From contig RFNL01000438.1 of the NCBI GenBank assembly GCA_009927195.1, forward strand, positions 1 through 42,156: 42,156 bases of DNA, given 5' to 3'. Below the pieces are notes generated by a model. That model was not told the DNA's origin. It was given only the letters and a program-made list of their open reading frames with translations, and ran no database searches. Shown here in pieces: positions 3,071 to 28,936 of this stretch (positions are counted from its first letter, which is position 1; each line of letters begins with the position of its first letter). The position numbers and the translations under genes were made by a program. The DNA comes from Betaproteobacteria bacterium. GTDB taxonomy: Bacteria > Pseudomonadota > Gammaproteobacteria > Burkholderiales > Burkholderiaceae_C.

Positions 3071-4750
3071 TCAGGCGGTGCCCCTTTCGACACCCGGGGG
3101 CAAGGTTTGCGCCCACTCGCGCAGTTTGAAACGCTGAATTTTGGCGTTTTCGGTGCGGGGCAAATGGGTCACAAACCGAACCATGCGCGGGTATTTGTAA
3201 GCCGCAATGCGTTGTTTGACCCAATCTTGCAGTTGCTCGGCCAACTCAGCACCAGCGACAGCGCCATCGCGCAACACCACAAAAGCCACAACAATTTGGC
3301 CACGCTCGGCACTGGGCGCACCCACCACACCGCATTCGGCCACCGCCGGGTGGGTGAGCAGCTCGTCCTCCACCTCGGGTCCTGCGATGTTGTAGCCCGC
3401 GCTGATGATCATGTCATCGGTGCGCGATTGGTACCAAAAGTAACCATCTGCGTCCATCCGGTAAGCATCCCCGGTCAGGTTCCAGCCGTTTTGCACATAA
3501 CTGGTCTGGCGCTCGTCGTCCAGGTACCGACAACCGGTGGGCCCTTTGACCGCCAAACGCCCTATTTCTCCGGGCGATGCGGGCAGGTCTTGCGCGTCGA
3601 GCACACAGGCCTGATAGCCCGGCACCACTTGCCCGGTGGCACCGGGTCGCACTTGCCCAGGTCGGCAGGCGATAAAGGCATGCAGCATCTCGGTCGCGCC
3701 CAGGCACTCGGTCATCTCCAAGCCTGTGGTGCGCTGCCATGCAGCGCGCGTATCGGCGGGCAACATTTCCCCCGAGGACACGGTCAAGCGCAAACTGGGC
3801 AAGCCGTGGGGGGGCACCAAAGGTGCCATCTGGCGATAAAAGGTGGGGGCGGTAAAGCAAATACTGGCTTGGTACTGCGCAATGCCCTCCATCAGGGTTT
3901 CCGGTCGCCAGCGCTCGACCAACACAGCTGAAGCGCCGAAGCGCAGGGGAAACAACAACAAACCGCCCAAGCCAAAAGTGAAGGCCAAGGGAGGGGTACC
4001 GATGAAGACATCACTGGGTTTGGGGTCCAAAAGATGCCGTGCCAACACGTCGCAAATGGTCAACACATCGCGGTGGAAATGCATGGTGCCTTTGGGCACA
4101 CCCGTGGTGCCCGAGGTGAAGGCAATGAGGGCTACATCGTCTTGGGCGGTGTCCACGTTGTCAAAGCAGGTGTCGTGTTTGTCCATGTGCACGCGGGCAC
4201 TTTGCGTCTCACCTTCTGGGGCTTGCAGGGTCAACACATGGGCCAGCTCGGGGCAAGCAGCTTGCGTGAGAGCCAACTCGTGCGACAAACTGTGTTGGCA
4301 AAAGGCGGCGCTGACTTTGGCTTTGCGCACAATGACCGAGAGCTCACGTTCGCGCAACAAAGGCATGGTGGTGACTGCGATGCAACCGGCCTTGAGCACC
4401 GCCAGCCAGGCCAGCGCCAACTCTGGGTGATTCTCGCCGCGCAACAAAATGCGACTGCCCGTGGGCAATTGCCATTCGTCTCGGATCACCCGCGCCAATT
4501 GGTTGGCCCGCTCCAGCACATCTTGGTAGGTCCAACGGACTTGTTGACCGATCAATGCAGGCCTGGATCCACCTCCTTGCACCACCGCACGGTCGAGCAA
4601 CTCCGCGGCGGCATTGAGGCGGGCTGGATAAGCCGCCGTGGTGGGATCCAGCACCAATTCGGGCCATTGCTGCGGGGGTGGCAAATGCGCGCGGGCAAAG
4701 CCATCGCTGTAGCCGCTCGGAAGAAAACGGTGCTCACTGGGGTGCGGCAT
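3071..4750 (-). CDS. Acyl-CoA ligase, AMP-forming (benzoate/2-aminobenzoate-CoA ligase family)
   Basis: This is an ANL-superfamily adenylating enzyme. The phosphate-binding loop is FTSGTTGVPKGTMH, the adenine-region motif is CLGATEM, and the catalytic lysine region lies in PRTENAKIQRFKLRE. The N-terminal region with YSDGFARAHLPPPQQWPEL and the overall length resemble benzoate- and anthranilate-CoA ligases. It would activate a carboxylic acid, probably aromatic, to its CoA thioester with ATP. The ORF track starts at a TTG at 4789 that overlaps the upstream gene by 19 nt. I prefer the ATG at 4750, preceded by AGGGCC, which gives 559 residues and a 20-bp gap. It is downstream of, and probably co-transcribed with, an OYE-type flavoprotein. 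The exact acid is not determinable. Confidence 0.87.
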   Translation of the reverse strand: MPHPSEHRFLPSGYSDGFARAHLPPPQQWPELVLDPTTAAYPARLNAAAELLDRAVVQGGGSRPALIGQQVRWTYQDVLERANQLARVIRDEWQLPTGSRILLRGENHPELALAWLAVLKAGCIAVTTMPLLRERELSVIVRKAKVSAAFCQHSLSHELALTQAACPELAHVLTLQAPEGETQSARVHMDKHDTCFDNVDTAQDDVALIAFTSGTTGVPKGTMHFHRDVLTICDVLARHLLDPKPSDVFIGTPPLAFTFGLGGLLLFPLRFGASAVLVERWRPETLMEGIAQYQASICFTAPTFYRQMAPLVPPHGLPSLRLTVSSGEMLPADTRAAWQRTTGLEMTECLGATEMLHAFIACRPGQVRPGATGQVVPGYQACVLDAQDLPASPGEIGRLAVKGPTGCRYLDDERQTSYVQNGWNLTGDAYRMDADGYFWYQSRTDDMIISAGYNIAGPEVEDELLTHPAVAECGVVGAPSAERGQIVVAFVVLRDGAVAGAELAEQLQDWVKQRIAAYKYPRMVRFVTHLPRTENAKIQRFKLREWAQTLPPGVERGTA

Positions 4751-4770
4751 GGCTTTCAAGGCCCTAGGCT

Positions 4771-6228
4771 TCAAGCCGGGGGTTGCCAAGGCGGCGCCAC
4801 CAAGCGGCGTTTACCATCATGGGATTTGCGCACACCGGGCTCGTCCAAGGCTTGCCGGTCCCACAATTGGCAAGTGACTTGTTTGTGCTTTTGGTCCAGG
4901 CCTTCGCAGTAGTTGGTGTACTCGCACAACCGGACTTGGTCGCCCATGCCCATGGACGTTTTCAATGCCCAGTCGGGATCGGCCAGGCTTTGCCGCGCAG
5001 TGCCCACGATGTCGCAGTCGCCGCGCACGAGCATGGCCTCGGCCATTTCAAAGTTGTGCACTCCGCCGGTGCACACCACCGGGGTTTGCAAGCCTGCGCT
5101 GCGGATGGCGCTGCGGATGCGCGCCGTGGCTGCCACATTGCGACCAAACGGCCCTTGCTCGTCGGACAGGTACTGCGGCATGCACTCATAACCACTGCGG
5201 CCGGTGTAGGGATAGGCACTGGAGCCCACGCCGGGTTGTTTGGCATCGTCAAATTTACCGCCGCGCGAGGTTGAGATGTAGTCCATGCCAGCACGGGCAA
5301 ACTGCTCGCCATACCAAACCGCATCGTCCAAGGTGTGGCCGCCTTCAATGCACTCTTGGGCCAAATAACGGCAACCCACGGCATAGGACGCACCCACGGC
5401 CTGTCGCACCGCGCCGTAAACCTCCAGCGGCAAACGGATGCGCTGGGCTCGGTCCCCGCCATACCCATCGGTTCGGTGGTTGGTGGCCGACAAAAAAGAA
5501 GCCATGGTGTAGGCGTGGGCATAGTGCAACTCCACACCATCAAAGCCCGCCAACTGCGCCCGCTTGGCGGCGGCGGCAAACAAACTGGGCAGCACCTGTG
5601 GCAGTTCACGGATATGGGGCAACTCGGTGTCGGTGACCCGCTCGCGAGCGCCCATCTGCAAGGCCTCCAACTCGCGGGCATCCAACACCTCGGGCCACTG
5701 TGCAGGGTCCAGCTGGCTCAGGTGCGCACGCACCGCCTCTTCGCTCCAATCCTGCGCCCTCAGCACCTGCCGCAAACGAGGGGTGATGCGCAAAAAACGT
5801 TCAAAAAATTTGGCTGGCTCAGGCCGGCGGCGGATATTGAGAAAGTCGATGATTTGGATCAAGGCGCGGGTTTGCCCCTGGCTTTCGCGGTGAATGGTCT
5901 GCACCAAAGCCTGCAAGCCTTCCACGCAGCGATCGTGACCGATGCGCAACAAGGGCCCGCTGGGCACATCACGGATGCCAGTGGCCTCAACGACAATGGC
6001 CCCTGGTCGTCCTCGGGCAAAGCGGCCATACCACTGCAACACATCCTCGGTGACCCAACCTTCGTCGTTGGAGCGCCACGGCACCATGGCGGGCACCCAG
6101 GTGCGCTGTGCCAGCCCCAAGGGGCCCAGCTGCACCGGGCTGAACAATCGGGAGGCCTTGGCCTCATCGGGCGTGGGCACCCGACCCAAGCTGGAATGAA
6201 ATTTGATGCGCTGAGGGGGTTTCCACAT
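4771..6228 (-). CDS. Old Yellow Enzyme family NADH:flavin oxidoreductase
   Basis: The 485-residue product has the FMN-barrel signature of enoate/2,4-dienoyl-CoA-reductase-like OYE enzymes: GFDGVELHYAHAYTMASFLS followed by NHRTDGYGGD. It lacks the FAD/NAD domain that 2,4-dienoyl-CoA reductase carries after the barrel. Near the C-terminus (about residues 435-453) lies a cysteine group resembling the Fe-S motif of that subfamily (C-x2-C-x3-C-x11-C). Here it is C-x5-C-x11-C, with a threonine near the place of the second cysteine, so a complete 4Fe-4S cluster is doubtful. It sits directly upstream of the acyl-CoA ligase and probably reduces a double bond of the same acid or its CoA thioester; that is inference. 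The ATG at 6228 follows a G-rich stretch. Confidence 0.86.
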   Translation of the reverse strand: MWKPPQRIKFHSSLGRVPTPDEAKASRLFSPVQLGPLGLAQRTWVPAMVPWRSNDEGWVTEDVLQWYGRFARGRPGAIVVEATGIRDVPSGPLLRIGHDRCVEGLQALVQTIHRESQGQTRALIQIIDFLNIRRRPEPAKFFERFLRITPRLRQVLRAQDWSEEAVRAHLSQLDPAQWPEVLDARELEALQMGARERVTDTELPHIRELPQVLPSLFAAAAKRAQLAGFDGVELHYAHAYTMASFLSATNHRTDGYGGDRAQRIRLPLEVYGAVRQAVGASYAVGCRYLAQECIEGGHTLDDAVWYGEQFARAGMDYISTSRGGKFDDAKQPGVGSSAYPYTGRSGYECMPQYLSDEQGPFGRNVAATARIRSAIRSAGLQTPVVCTGGVHNFEMAEAMLVRGDCDIVGTARQSLADPDWALKTSMGMGDQVRLCEYTNYCEGLDQKHKQVTCQLWDRQALDEPGVRKSHDGKRRLVAPPWQPPA

Positions 6229-24271: not shown

Positions 24272-26004
24272 TCAAAGTCTCGTGACTCTGACCTGTAACA
24301 CAGCACTTTGCCCATGGGCCAGAGCCGCCAAACAACGGGTGATGGCAGCATTCACATCAAGCGGATCGCTGACCATTTCACCATGTGCGCCAGCGGCCAT
24401 TGCGACCATCGCAAAGTTCATGTCGGGGGCCAAATGGGCTTGGTAGGCTTGGGTCTGTTTGGCCACCCCCTGGGGAAACACGCGCAAGGTGGCTTCCTTC
24501 ACCGCCGCCCAACCGCCGTTGTCCAATATGACCGTGAAAACCGGCAAGCCATATTGCTTGGCCACCGCCAGGCTCGACTGAGGATTGCCAAAATAAAAAG
24601 AGCCATCGCCAGAGAAGGCCACCACACAACGCTCTGGCTTGGCCAGTTTGATGCCCAGCGCCATGCCGGCTGAAAAGCCAAGACCGCCGCCCGCCAAGCC
24701 CACATGCGATCCAGGCACGGTGCGCGGTACTTGCATGGCCACCACTGGCGCGTTGCGAATGGCCTCGTTGAGCACAATGGCGTCCGTTGGGATGGCCCTG
24801 GCCACCGCCGCACACACATGGTGTGGGTTGATTTGACCGATCAGACCAGGGTCACGGGCCAGTTCCAAGGCCCGCTGCTGGCGCTGTTGGTTCTCAATCG
24901 CCATTTCAGCCACCGCGTTTGCGCGGCTTGGGTGAAAGCCGGGTTCAAACGCTGTTGCAAACGCTCCAATATTTGCGACAAGATGCGATGGCTGTCTCCC
25001 GGCATCTTCAGGTGGCGAGGAAAACTCCACATGGGATAACTGCGTTTATCGATGTCAACATCAATGTGGGCCCACCATGTTTGGGGAAGAACCGGCGTGT
25101 CGCGGGGAATCCATGGCACATCCACGTCCACGATCAAACCCACATCTGCCTGTGCCACATGGGCACCCGGCACAAAGCCACCAAAGCAGGGAGAGTCGTG
25201 GGGGATGTTGAGGTCCACTGCGTTGCATTCGATCACCCGAATGCCACCCAGGCGGGCCAAGGCATCCAATATCGCCACTGTGGCCGGGTTGCGACCGCTG
25301 TAGGAGGTGATGATCAAGGGCTTTTGGGCCGCTAACAAGCGGTCCACCACTTGCTCTATGGCCTGCGGGTCGGTACCCAGGGCCGGTGTTGGCCCGTAGG
25401 TCTCGGCCGCAAATGCGTGCATCTGTTCGTCACGCCAATGCTCGGTCAAAGTTTCACGCGCAAAAGTCAGATAAACCGGCCCCTTGGGATCGCTTTGCAT
25501 GACACTGTGGGCGCGGCGCAAGGCCTCCTTGGCGATCACACCAGATGGCAAGTTGTAATCCCATTTGACATATTGGCGCACCAAACTGCCTTGGTCATAG
25601 GGCTCTTGCACAAAGTTGACAAAGGTGTCGCGGGTTCCAGGCAATTCACCGTGCGATGTGTAAGGTGCCCGCCCTGCCATCAACATCAAAGGCAAACGCG
25701 CCTTGGAAATATTGTGAATGCCCATGGCCGCATTCGCTGTGCCCGCATCCACATGGACCAAAACCCCTTGCCCCTGCCCGGTTGCCAAAGCATAGCCAGC
25801 GGCCATGTGAACTGCCGTGTTTTCATGCGGGCACAAAATGGTTTGGGGAAACTTTTTCCCTTGCTGACGCCAAAGCGCCATCTCTTCAATCAAGGGTGCA
25901 TGGTCAGTGCCCAAATTACAAAACAAATAGGACAGGCCCAGGTCGTTGAAGCCTTGGAGCAGATGGTGTGCCGTGGAGTGACCCAGCGGTTCATCCATGC
26001 TCAT
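24272..26004 (-). pseudogene. Thiamine-diphosphate-dependent enzyme, split by a single-base frameshift
   Basis: Two ORFs (24841-26118 and 24272-25030) hold the first and second parts of one ThDP enzyme. The first part, starting at the ATG at 26004, contains the N-terminal pyrimidine-binding domain with catalytic glutamate in CPHENTAVHMAAGYA (about Glu61) and a central domain. The second contains the diphosphate-binding GDGSFYFGNPQSS motif and DNGGW. The reading frame changes near 24910: a minus-strand TGGCTGAAATGG would read through if one G were added (TGGGCTGAAATGG), joining the parts into about 577 residues, a normal length. Either a true inactivating deletion or a sequencing error is possible; no classical slippery heptamer is present. 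Its start overlaps the NIPSNAP gene by 4 nt. The reaction (decarboxylase, ligase or synthase) is unknown. Confidence 0.85.
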
Positions 26005-26318
26005 GGGTGCGGTCCCCAAGGGGCTGCCAGCATGAGCTTGTTTTCTTGTGACAGGATCATTGGTCGCAATTTGGCCGCGAAGGCCATGAATGCAGGATCG
26101 GCATAGATGCCTGCCCAAAAAGCCCGACGATCTGCATCATCATCAAATTTCCAAACATGAATGAGTTGATTCAATGCGCCCACATCGCCCGTGAAATAGC
26201 CCACCAATTTAGGGGGATGTTTCGCCAAGGCCGCCCAACCCTCGCTGCCATAAAGGGCAACCACTTCTGACATCTTGCCCACAATGACTGTGTAAGTGCG
26301 CAATTCATACAACGCCAT
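26001..26318 (-). CDS. NIPSNAP family protein
   Basis: The 105-residue protein begins with ALYELRTYTVIVGKMSEVV, the hallmark start of NIPSNAP-domain proteins, and continues with LVGYFTGDVGALNQLIHVWKFDD and a conserved RRAFWAGIYADPAF stretch. The fold is a dimeric ferredoxin-like alpha/beta barrel; bacterial members often lie in catabolic operons, but their chemistry is unclear. A strong AAGGAG Shine-Dalgarno precedes the ATG. Its stop overlaps the start of the ThDP enzyme (ATGA), so the two were meant to be made together. It is the first gene of this unit. Confidence 0.88.
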   Translation of the reverse strand: MALYELRTYTVIVGKMSEVVALYGSEGWAALAKHPPKLVGYFTGDVGALNQLIHVWKFDDDADRRAFWAGIYADPAFMAFAAKLRPMILSQENKLMLAAPWGPHP

Positions 26319-26917
26319 GATGACTCCTTGTGCTTTGAATTTATCTTACCAAAGGCCTTGCGAAACCACCCATTGTCGGTCGTGCCCACGGCGAACCCTT
26401 GCGATCGGCACAGCACCCTGGCATTTCGCCGCACCCCAAGCCAAGATGGCGCACAGGGCAATGACCCCCACATTTGATCTATCCCCCGCGTCAACCTGCT
26501 CAGACACACCTTGCCGGTGATGGACACCCACAAGATAAGCCGCATCACCTCCCATCAACACCCGGGCGGCGCTGTTCAAGCAGTTTGATCGTGCAGGTGG
26601 ATTCAAAACGGTCTAGCCAAGGATGAAATTCGATATCGGTCTAATCTGACTGCAGTTGAGTATTCATGCTCAATTGCAAAATATTTTGTGGATACAAAGC
26701 CAGTGGCTGGCTGAATTTATTTTCCAAAAATACACGGATTCACGCCCAAAAAGGCAGATTATTGTGAGCCTTTGAGAGCCCAAATGAGCGATTGAGGGTG
26801 TTCTTGCAGACCGGATCACTAACCTGACTGCATGTTCAAAGTCCAAATGGATGGCCCCAAAGCGTTTCGCACAAATGCGGGGCCTGCCTTTTCGGTCGCC
26901 CTTTTGGAGGCGTATCA
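26319..26917. other. 599-bp intergenic region with inverted repeats, no gene supported
   Basis: The region separates the divergent NIPSNAP and TerB-like genes and must hold both promoters. The 86-residue ORF at 26346-26606 has no recognisable features, and I do not call it a gene. From about 26640 to 26760 the DNA is AT-rich. It contains a 28-bp inverted repeat at 26651-26678 and a small GCCAG-TGG-CTGGC hairpin at 26699-26711. I could not choose a convincing -35/-10 pair. The TerB-like gene has a GGAGG Shine-Dalgarno at the right end. Confidence 0.5.
26651..26678. repeat. 28-bp inverted repeat between NIPSNAP and TerB-like genes
   Basis: TGCAGTTGAG and CTCAATTGCA are 10-bp arms with one mismatch around an 8-bp centre (TATTCATG). 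The size and spacing suit binding of a dimeric regulator to two successive turns of DNA. It lies about 240-270 bp upstream of the TerB-like gene and over 330 bp upstream of NIPSNAP, so which gene it would control is unclear. Confidence 0.45.
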
Positions 26918-28936
26918 ATGAAGGACACAAGCAAACATTTGAGTTTGCTGAACCAATTTCGCGAATCACCCCAAGAATCAGCCCGGTCGCAGCAAGTCAC
27001 CTTCAGGTTGACACCGCAATTGGTTTTGGCCAGTGCCTTGCTGCACATGATGGCCAGCGACGGAAAAATCGAGGATGCGGAAAGCAGTCAACTGCAATCG
27101 GTGCTGGGCGGGGATCAGCATGTGATCGATGTGGCCGTTGAATACACCCAAACTGTGCCCATCCAGCAATTTTTGATCGACGCATTACAGGTTCTCGACA
27201 AGACCAGTACCTTGTGTGTATTGACCAATGTATTTGATTCAATGCTGTCAGACGGCCAAGCGGGTTCACAAGAGTTGGCATTGTTTGATCGCATGAAATT
27301 GGCTTGGGGAGTGGAGACAGCGGCATTTGCGCCTTTCCAAAATGCCATTGCACTGAAAAATAACCTGTCAGTGATGGGCCCATACGAAGCCAATCGCCTC
27401 AACGATCCTGTGATCACGACGCATTTGGCACTGGCTGCATCCTTGCTCTACATGATGGCAGCAGATGGAACGATTGCCACCCAAGAGATTGGACAATTGC
27501 AAACGGTGATTGGAAGGTTTCCAGGCCTGCAAGAGGCTGCACTGAAACAAGTTCGCTCTGTCAAATTGCCTGAATTTTTAAAACGTGCTTCCCCCTCATT
27601 AAGCCCTGAGGGCAAACTTTTTATCCTGGCCAATGTGTGCGACTCGATGATGGCCGACGGCACTGTAGATGCTTTGGAAAGCAAAATTTTCCAAACCATG
27701 CTGGCGGGCTATGGCCACAACAACACCAGCTTCAAACCCTTTTACCAGTCGATCAAAGTCAAAAACATCAAGACCTTTTCGGCGTCGGTACACAAACCCA
27801 AGCTGATTTACAACAATATGACCGCTGGCAATGGCCTGGATGATGAGGGGGTGCGCTTTAACCGAGACAACTCCTTCAACGAGGAAACTCCCGCTTCAGC
27901 AGAGGATGATCCGTCAACCAAGCCCAAGGGCCCTGTGATCAGCCATGTGCTTGCGGATCAAGAAGGTGTGCATGCTGGCAATCGCACCATGCAGGACAAC
28001 ATTGACAAGGTTTCGCAGGGGTTTGGGGATGATGATCAGGTGCAGGTGGTTCAAAACAATGCCTTGGCCGACCATCTGGCTTTGGCAGCGCGAGCTGAAG
28101 ATGCTGATGACAACATCCAACGAATCGCAGGCAAAACTTCAAATGACAATTTGCAATCCATCCAGCCTGGGCAAGCAGACCTTGCTGACGGTATCGGCAT
28201 TCCCACGCAATCATGGGCGGATGAAAGCCCAGACCTGTCCAAACAAGGTTTGACCGATAGCCATGTGGCCTTGGACACCCACTCAACCTCACCCAATGTG
28301 GCCAAGCGGTCTGGCGCTATAGACAATGACAACACCATACCCCTGATTGGCAGTGCCAATGACCCCCACTTGGCATCCTTGCCCACAGAAGAGGTCAAGC
28401 CCAATATCCAAAGCCTGGACCGTGAAGCTTTGACCACCAACCGACAAGCCGCACCAGAAAGCTTGCCCACAGAAAACCGTCAGGCTCTTACGTCGGCCGC
28501 TCTTGAAGACCAAAAATCAAGCTTGGCCAAAGCCCCCTTGGTTGACAACCGCCAAGCGGTTACAGAAACGGCGAAGACCCCCAATCGGCAACCGGTGGCG
28601 CAAGACGCTGCGAAGTCGAACCACAACAATGCCGCGGTGCAAACCATTGGCACCCACAGGGCTCAACTGCCTGCGGTTTCACCCGCCTTGAAAATCGGCT
28701 TACAAGCGCATAGCCAGCCAGCCACAACGCGATTGCGCACAGGGGTGCAAAAGCCGTCAACCCCCAAAGTAAATCGTGTCAAAGAATTATCTGAACATGT
28801 CAAACAATTGCGGCTTCGACTGGATCAACTGGCAGGCATGAACCATGCTGTTTTACAAGCGGCACAAAACGCCGCTGGCGGCAATTGCAGCACATGCGGT
28901 AACCCAAGGTGTTTGTTCACCCACCACATCCACTGA
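26918..28936 (+). CDS. Tandem TerB-like protein with long disordered tail and C-terminal Cys/His cluster
   Basis: The 672-residue product has no signal peptide or membrane span and is probably cytosolic. Residues about 30-145 and 165-280 form two related helical modules. Each has two acidic loops of the TerB type: ASDGKIEDAE and LSDGQAGSQE in the first, AADGTIATQE and MADGTVDALE in the second. These loops resemble the TerB (tellurite-resistance) metal-binding helical bundle. Residues about 285-620 are polar, low-complexity and rich in D, N, Q and S, with repeated NRQ(A/P) units near 505-575. A predicted coiled coil (RVKELSEHVKQLRLRLDQLA) leads to a terminal C-x2-C-x4-C-x3-HH-x-H group that could bind zinc. 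No other ter gene is near. A GGAGG site precedes the ATG. The overall architecture is one I do not recognise. Confidence 0.8.
   Translation: MKDTSKHLSLLNQFRESPQESARSQQVTFRLTPQLVLASALLHMMASDGKIEDAESSQLQSVLGGDQHVIDVAVEYTQTVPIQQFLIDALQVLDKTSTLCVLTNVFDSMLSDGQAGSQELALFDRMKLAWGVETAAFAPFQNAIALKNNLSVMGPYEANRLNDPVITTHLALAASLLYMMAADGTIATQEIGQLQTVIGRFPGLQEAALKQVRSVKLPEFLKRASPSLSPEGKLFILANVCDSMMADGTVDALESKIFQTMLAGYGHNNTSFKPFYQSIKVKNIKTFSASVHKPKLIYNNMTAGNGLDDEGVRFNRDNSFNEETPASAEDDPSTKPKGPVISHVLADQEGVHAGNRTMQDNIDKVSQGFGDDDQVQVVQNNALADHLALAARAEDADDNIQRIAGKTSNDNLQSIQPGQADLADGIGIPTQSWADESPDLSKQGLTDSHVALDTHSTSPNVAKRSGAIDNDNTIPLIGSANDPHLASLPTEEVKPNIQSLDREALTTNRQAAPESLPTENRQALTSAALEDQKSSLAKAPLVDNRQAVTETAKTPNRQPVAQDAAKSNHNNAAVQTIGTHRAQLPAVSPALKIGLQAHSQPATTRLRTGVQKPSTPKVNRVKELSEHVKQLRLRLDQLAGMNHAVLQAAQNAAGGNCSTCGNPRCLFTHHIH

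Follow-up and report, generated by a model that had tools for sequence, protein, structure and literature searches.

A genus-level family of tandem TerB proteins with a two-component system as its probable partner and a predicted operator

TerB domains are widespread, and their role outside ter operons is unclear. A 42,156-nucleotide stretch of betaproteobacterial DNA (the window; coordinates below are on its plus strand unless stated) poses this question directly: it encodes a 672-residue protein that joins two TerB-like modules, a long polar tail and a terminal Cys/His cluster. What might such a protein do, and with what partners? A first-pass annotation took the gene to stand alone and suggested a scaffold or sensor, which was a fair guess. 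Here, we find that the protein belongs to a real, conserved, genus-level family whose architecture is undescribed and which has no family entry of its own, and we newly recognize a regulatory partner of this tandem TerB family, a two-component system.

The open reading frame at 26918-28936 lies exactly where the first-pass annotation had placed it, starts with ATG, and follows a Shine-Dalgarno sequence, GGAGG, read directly from the sequence at 26906-26910; its assignment as a tandem TerB/12-residue-repeat/Cys-tail protein draws on the ORF call, Pfam, homologs and purifying selection. NCBIfam holds no family for the protein and no family entry covers its whole length, in keeping with the initial impression of an unfamiliar architecture. 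Whole-genome searches recovered this architecture in 17 of 37 genomes of the same genus, and it is also present in one complete genome, G512; the protein is thus not the one-strain curiosity that the first-pass annotation had allowed for. The architecture was not found in other genera of the same family (251 genomes searched), and in that same search the 12-residue repeats of the tail were likewise confined to the genus. The named relatives come from betaproteobacterial metagenome assemblies that carry the label Comamonadaceae or Burkholderiales, and a freshwater origin is our reading of the isolate names only. Between the window gene and that of its nearest relative (L038, from genome G002), synonymous sites are near saturation (dS 1.5) and pN/pS is 0.31 over the whole protein, with the strongest purifying selection in the second TerB module (0.15) and a looser constraint in the repeat tail (0.50) than in either that module or the Cys/His segment. 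Elsewhere in the window, a thiamine-pyrophosphate enzyme on the minus strand (24272-26118) is split into two overlapping frames of 425 and 252 residues; its L038 counterpart is a single 577-residue ORF (4272-6005), and the split reflects either a genuine genomic frameshift or a mistake in assembly.

The N-terminal part of the protein is, as had been judged by eye, an internally duplicated TerB module. Pfam TerB (PF05099) matches two stretches above its curated cut-off (36.6 bits versus 24.4; E=6e-9), and because residues 29-155 (27002-27382) and 161-287 (27398-27778) are 36% identical over 118 residues (E=1e-24), we consider the duplication to be real. Alignment and AlphaFold delimit both domains along with Pfam, joined by Foldseek for the first and by the pattern of selection for the second. 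Each carries two D-G-x5-E loops, and all four loops (D48/G49/E55, D112/G113/E119, D183/G184/E190 and D247/G248/E254) are invariant in 17 of 17 homologs. AlphaFold predicts a confident, all-helical module of TerB type at about residues 29-287, with very low confidence at 288-356 and 398-622. The top Foldseek match is PG1108 (2h5n), with a probability of 1.0 and a TM(target) of 0.55-0.59 at E-values of only 0.03-0.07, which are probably weak owing to the large disordered share of the full model. A sequence-profile search against the PDB returned 2h5n first and also 2ou3, both weakly, and a PDB search with the single sequence gave no match. The acidic character of the loops suggests divalent-metal binding, and all four probably bind such ions. 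The window genome also encodes a single-TerB protein of 144 residues (L053; G000:C98:3105-3539) that is 44% identical to the first module, and further genomes of the genus have similar proteins of 137-139 residues.

The tail was first described as long and polar; it is mostly disordered by AlphaFold, but it is not formless, since it contains 12-residue N-x-Q repeats (N-x-Q-x-hydrophobic at the start of the pattern) and a predicted helical segment. The latter spans residues 349-397 (27962-28108), carries a conserved RTMQ[DE]NI motif, and is modeled by AlphaFold with a pLDDT of about 67-82. The autocorrelation of N and Q at lag 12 is 13, against 3.9 ± 1.8 and a maximum of 10 in 1000 shuffles, and lag 12 is the best lag for the N-x-Q motif in the window protein and in every homolog. 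Repeat autocorrelation places the first two units at residues 399-422 (NIQRIAGKTSND and NLQSIQPGQADL; 28112-28183). A second block at residues 496-567 (28403-28618) comprises NIQSLDREALTT, NRQAAPESLPTE, NRQALTSAALED, a degenerate unit, NRQAVTETAKTP and NRQPVAQDAAKS, and L038 has about three extra units at this position. A second protein family of the genus, which lacks TerB, is made of this 12-residue unit as well: its members run to about 390-770 residues with up to about 25 units, bear a conserved N-terminal sequence (S-V-S-E-x-T-G-N-A-K-x-P-x-N) and a helix at the C-terminus, and match no Pfam family. The window genome encodes one (L169; G000:C439:7437-8645), and L092, L095, L102, L103, L105 and L106 are among the others; some of their genes adjoin a gene for a B12-binding domain, others a gene with a weak SPOR-domain match. 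AlphaFold models the repeats of a TerB-less protein with low confidence (pTM 0.18) and does not support a solenoid. That both families share the repeat suggests that they may co-assemble.

Beyond the repeats, AlphaFold predicts a C-terminal helix at residues 617-652 (28766-28873), which by eye is the counterpart of the short post-repeat helix in other homologs and in the TerB-less repeat proteins. The protein then ends in the Cys/His cluster GNCSTCGNPRCLFTHHIH (C-x2-C-x4-C-x4-HH-x-H; 28883-28933). The cluster was rightly picked out at first pass: its tail, NCSTCGN[RK]CLFTHH[IV]H, is kept in L038 at a dS of about 2 with a pN/pS of 0.17. Only the window protein and L038 have it, and neither has a hydrophobic or transmembrane segment. 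In the remaining set of 15 homologs (all but these two), 13 have a hydrophobic segment near the C-terminus, and in many of them a Cys-containing domain follows that is probably periplasmic; the sequences of the other two (L041 and L049) stop where their contigs end. On this comparison, the Cys/His cluster is a swap, specific to one sub-lineage, for the transmembrane anchor of the other homologs. No zinc-knuckle or zinc-ribbon profile and no Pfam or NCBIfam family matches the cluster; we regard it as a probable zinc site.

Two kinds of gene lie directly 3′ of the tandem TerB gene in some genomes. In five, it is a gene for a small predicted lipoprotein (L043:11549-12058, L044:12417-12920, L014, L042 and L046), which in most cases overlaps the end of the membrane-anchored tandem TerB gene and whose product has a C-terminus resembling the periplasmic end of the TerB protein (Cys...PW). 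In two genomes, an ion-channel gene occupies this position (L050:3160-4167 and L051:6836-7828); the L050 product has an Ion_trans Pfam match and its gene overlaps the end of the tandem TerB gene, and the two are possibly translationally coupled.

A survey of genome neighborhoods showed that the gene is not the stand-alone unit it had seemed. The tandem TerB gene is divergent from genes for a 7TMR-DISM histidine kinase and an OmpR-type regulator in eight genomes. Orthologs of this regulator (58-100% identity; next matches at most 41%, apart from one short fragment) are present in 14 of the 17 genomes with the tandem TerB gene and in 0 of the 20 without it (Fisher's exact p=1.1e-7, counting genomes that share ancestry rather than independent events). 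The exceptions are G033, where another regulator/kinase pair lies directly upstream of the tandem TerB gene, G009, where the contig ends at that gene, and G025, an 82%-complete draft; G512, outside this count, resembles G033. The window genome encodes the kinase (L140:7752-9680) and regulator (L140:9683-10399) on another contig, G000:C85, with Pfam matches to 7TMR-DISMED2 (6e-17), Response_reg and Trans_reg_C. Among the 14 regulator-bearing genomes, 6 have the tandem TerB gene apart from the system. Distance matrices of the TerB module and the regulator correlate with r=0.93, and the gene has been inherited vertically with the regulator. HrcA, encoded upstream in five genomes, was considered as a functional partner and dropped: a conserved neighbor in a single sub-lineage is no more than shared synteny would produce, and these genomes keep the regulator elsewhere, except for the incomplete draft G025.

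The pairing extends further. Another family of the order contains a divergent tandem TerB homolog (L135, 1531-3900, minus strand) with degenerate D-G-x5-E loops and apparent C-terminal transmembrane segments, and its gene, too, sits divergent from a regulator/kinase pair. The regulator next to this homolog and that next to the G033 gene share 56% identity, so association of the protein with two-component systems probably pre-dates the genus.

The second line of evidence for a regulatory partner is a promoter array. Regions upstream of the regulator-associated genes share a motif, TTCCATGGGTATTTGTGAGT, which consists of two CGTGAGT half-sites 10 bp apart and is often extended to three or four units (log-likelihood 125, versus 50-63 in shuffles). 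With leave-one-lineage-out matrices, arrays were found in every lineage that has the regulator, with individual members (L044 and L046) scoring weakly, and none was found in the lineage with a different system (L039, L040 and L167). In the window, a half-site matrix trained on other lineages only identifies a predicted OmpR-family regulator site at 26763-26799, from -155 to about -119 relative to the ATG: four half-sites of about 7 bp (TGTGAGC, TGAGAGC, AATGAGC and TGAGGGT) with a 10-bp period. Among 84,300 window positions this array ranks first for three and for four units, unit numbers that were chosen after the array had been seen, and 97th for two units, which by themselves fall short of significance. 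It is degenerate, with one unit reading GAGAG, and the half-site array model alone finds it; a 20-bp motif matrix does not, with a best upstream score of 2.9. The array block is conserved with L038 despite a different gene just upstream. A strict 17-mer operator matched five tandem TerB promoters and seven other places; five of these seven were read (G033 and G003 were left out), all lie inside coding sequence, and no wider regulon emerged from this search. Searches for a sigma-70 promoter close to the start of the gene and for an Rfam RNA in its upstream region both gave nothing. The locus thus combines what is looked for in an OmpR-family target, an upstream direct-repeat array of about 10-bp period and a cognate regulator in the genome, and the array has the pattern predicted for a site that stayed with its target gene when gene and regulator came apart. 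Because the system of the window genome lies on another contig, the evidence for the link there is the motif and the co-occurrence.

Domain duplication, loop invariance, the repeat, the anchor swap, partner co-occurrence and the operator array can each be read from sequence, and together they suggest a model to which we assign a probability of about 0.55: that the gene is a dedicated target, probably an effector or co-sensor, of an envelope two-component system, and that its product is a multivalent scaffold or sensor beneath the membrane. We propose that the 7TMR-DISM kinase would detect an external signal and phosphorylate the OmpR-family regulator, which would then bind the 10-bp-periodic direct-repeat array upstream and control transcription of the gene. 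In the resulting protein, a flexible spacer of 12-residue N-x-Q repeats would tether a cytoplasmic pair of TerB modules, with four acidic loops that probably serve as binding sites for divalent metal ions, to an end piece. In most homologs this end piece would be a transmembrane helix, which often leads into a Cys-containing periplasmic domain; the window's sub-lineage would have a soluble, zinc-knuckle-like Cys/His tail in its place. The topology of most homologs, with cytoplasmic TerB modules and repeats, a membrane helix and an outer domain, suggests that the protein most likely acts as a multivalent scaffold or sensor under the inner membrane, where it may co-assemble with the TerB-less repeat proteins of the genus. 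Of these steps the regulatory link is the best supported, and well supported; we infer control by the regulator, metal binding, membrane location and scaffolding. More tentatively, the family may represent a new class of two-component output in which TerB metal-sensor modules, repeat spacers and exchangeable anchors, assembling with TerB-less repeat proteins, are wired by an operator to a 7TMR-DISM pair.

A serious rival, though to our minds an improbable one, places the TerB protein upstream of the kinase: it would sense through its periplasmic end or its loops and modulate the kinase or regulator, and the regulator would feed back on its accessory gene. Tight genetic pairing and co-inheritance with the system fit this reading, as do the periplasmic C-terminal domains of many homologs. 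There is also a precedent in DjlA, a membrane-anchored protein with a TerB-like domain whose overproduction activates the Rcs phosphorelay (PMC11451591). DjlA's effect, however, needs its J-domain (PMC11451591), which the tandem TerB protein lacks, and the gene keeps its promoter array in genomes where it is unlinked from the system, which argues for a target rather than a signaling subunit.

We also doubt that the protein is a transcriptional target of purely structural or storage function, a repeat-built filament or condensate scaffold in which the TerB modules are mere dimerization domains. Such a role would suit a repeat that also makes up TerB-less proteins and whose number differs between close relatives, yet the repeat is predicted to be disordered, and four acidic loops invariant across the genus go beyond the needs of dimerization.

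Although both ter operons and the Shango anti-phage system include TerB domains (PMC10250203), a Ter-type stress or phage-defense component, tellurite/ter operon or Shango-like, is very improbable given the missing TerD, TerC-family genes on other contigs, a negative PADLOC result, no helicase/ATPase trio or island, vertical inheritance, and neighbors that are housekeeping genes or the two-component system. The window contains no linked terC, terD or terZ, as the first-pass annotation had observed; searches of the draft genome and of 22 genus relatives found no TerD, the two TerC-family genes of the window genome lie on contigs C389 and C138, and we rejected a ter operon on these grounds. The association with phage defense that had been raised finds no support, and was rejected: PADLOC returned no phage-defense match, no defense genes sit beside the homologs, and the gene is inherited vertically with its regulator.

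Returning to the proposed target of an envelope two-component system, a tandem TerB protein whose partner system can be named, whose operator is predicted and whose anchor varies naturally within one genus makes both regulation and role directly testable. More generally, a gene that seems isolated in its window can stay tied in its regulation to a system encoded in another part of the genome. Of known systems, Shango, which combines a TerB-like protein, an ATPase and a helicase (PMC10250203), shares only the TerB-like domain with the window protein, which has no ATPase or helicase partners, lies outside any defense island and is negative in PADLOC. The stand-alone single-TerB proteins of the genus (about 138-144 residues, such as that on G000:C98), despite their 44% identity to the first module, differ in having one module, no tail and another neighborhood. 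DjlA/Rcs is alike in its membrane-tethered TerB-like module that is functionally tied to a phosphorelay (PMC11451591), and the domain was still described as "of unknown function" in 2024 (PMC11451591). Against DjlA, the tandem TerB protein has no J-domain by Pfam scan, two TerB modules, 12-residue repeats, a different kinase family and a reversed topology, with TerB N-terminal and the anchor C-terminal, and the window version is without a membrane helix. With the TerB family at large (PF05099; solved relatives PG1108, 2h5n, and COG3793, 2ou3) it shares the profile match, the helical fold and the paired D-G-x5-E loops, and it departs from that family in its freedom from a ter operon, its tandem modules, repeat tail and variable anchor, and its pairing with a two-component system.
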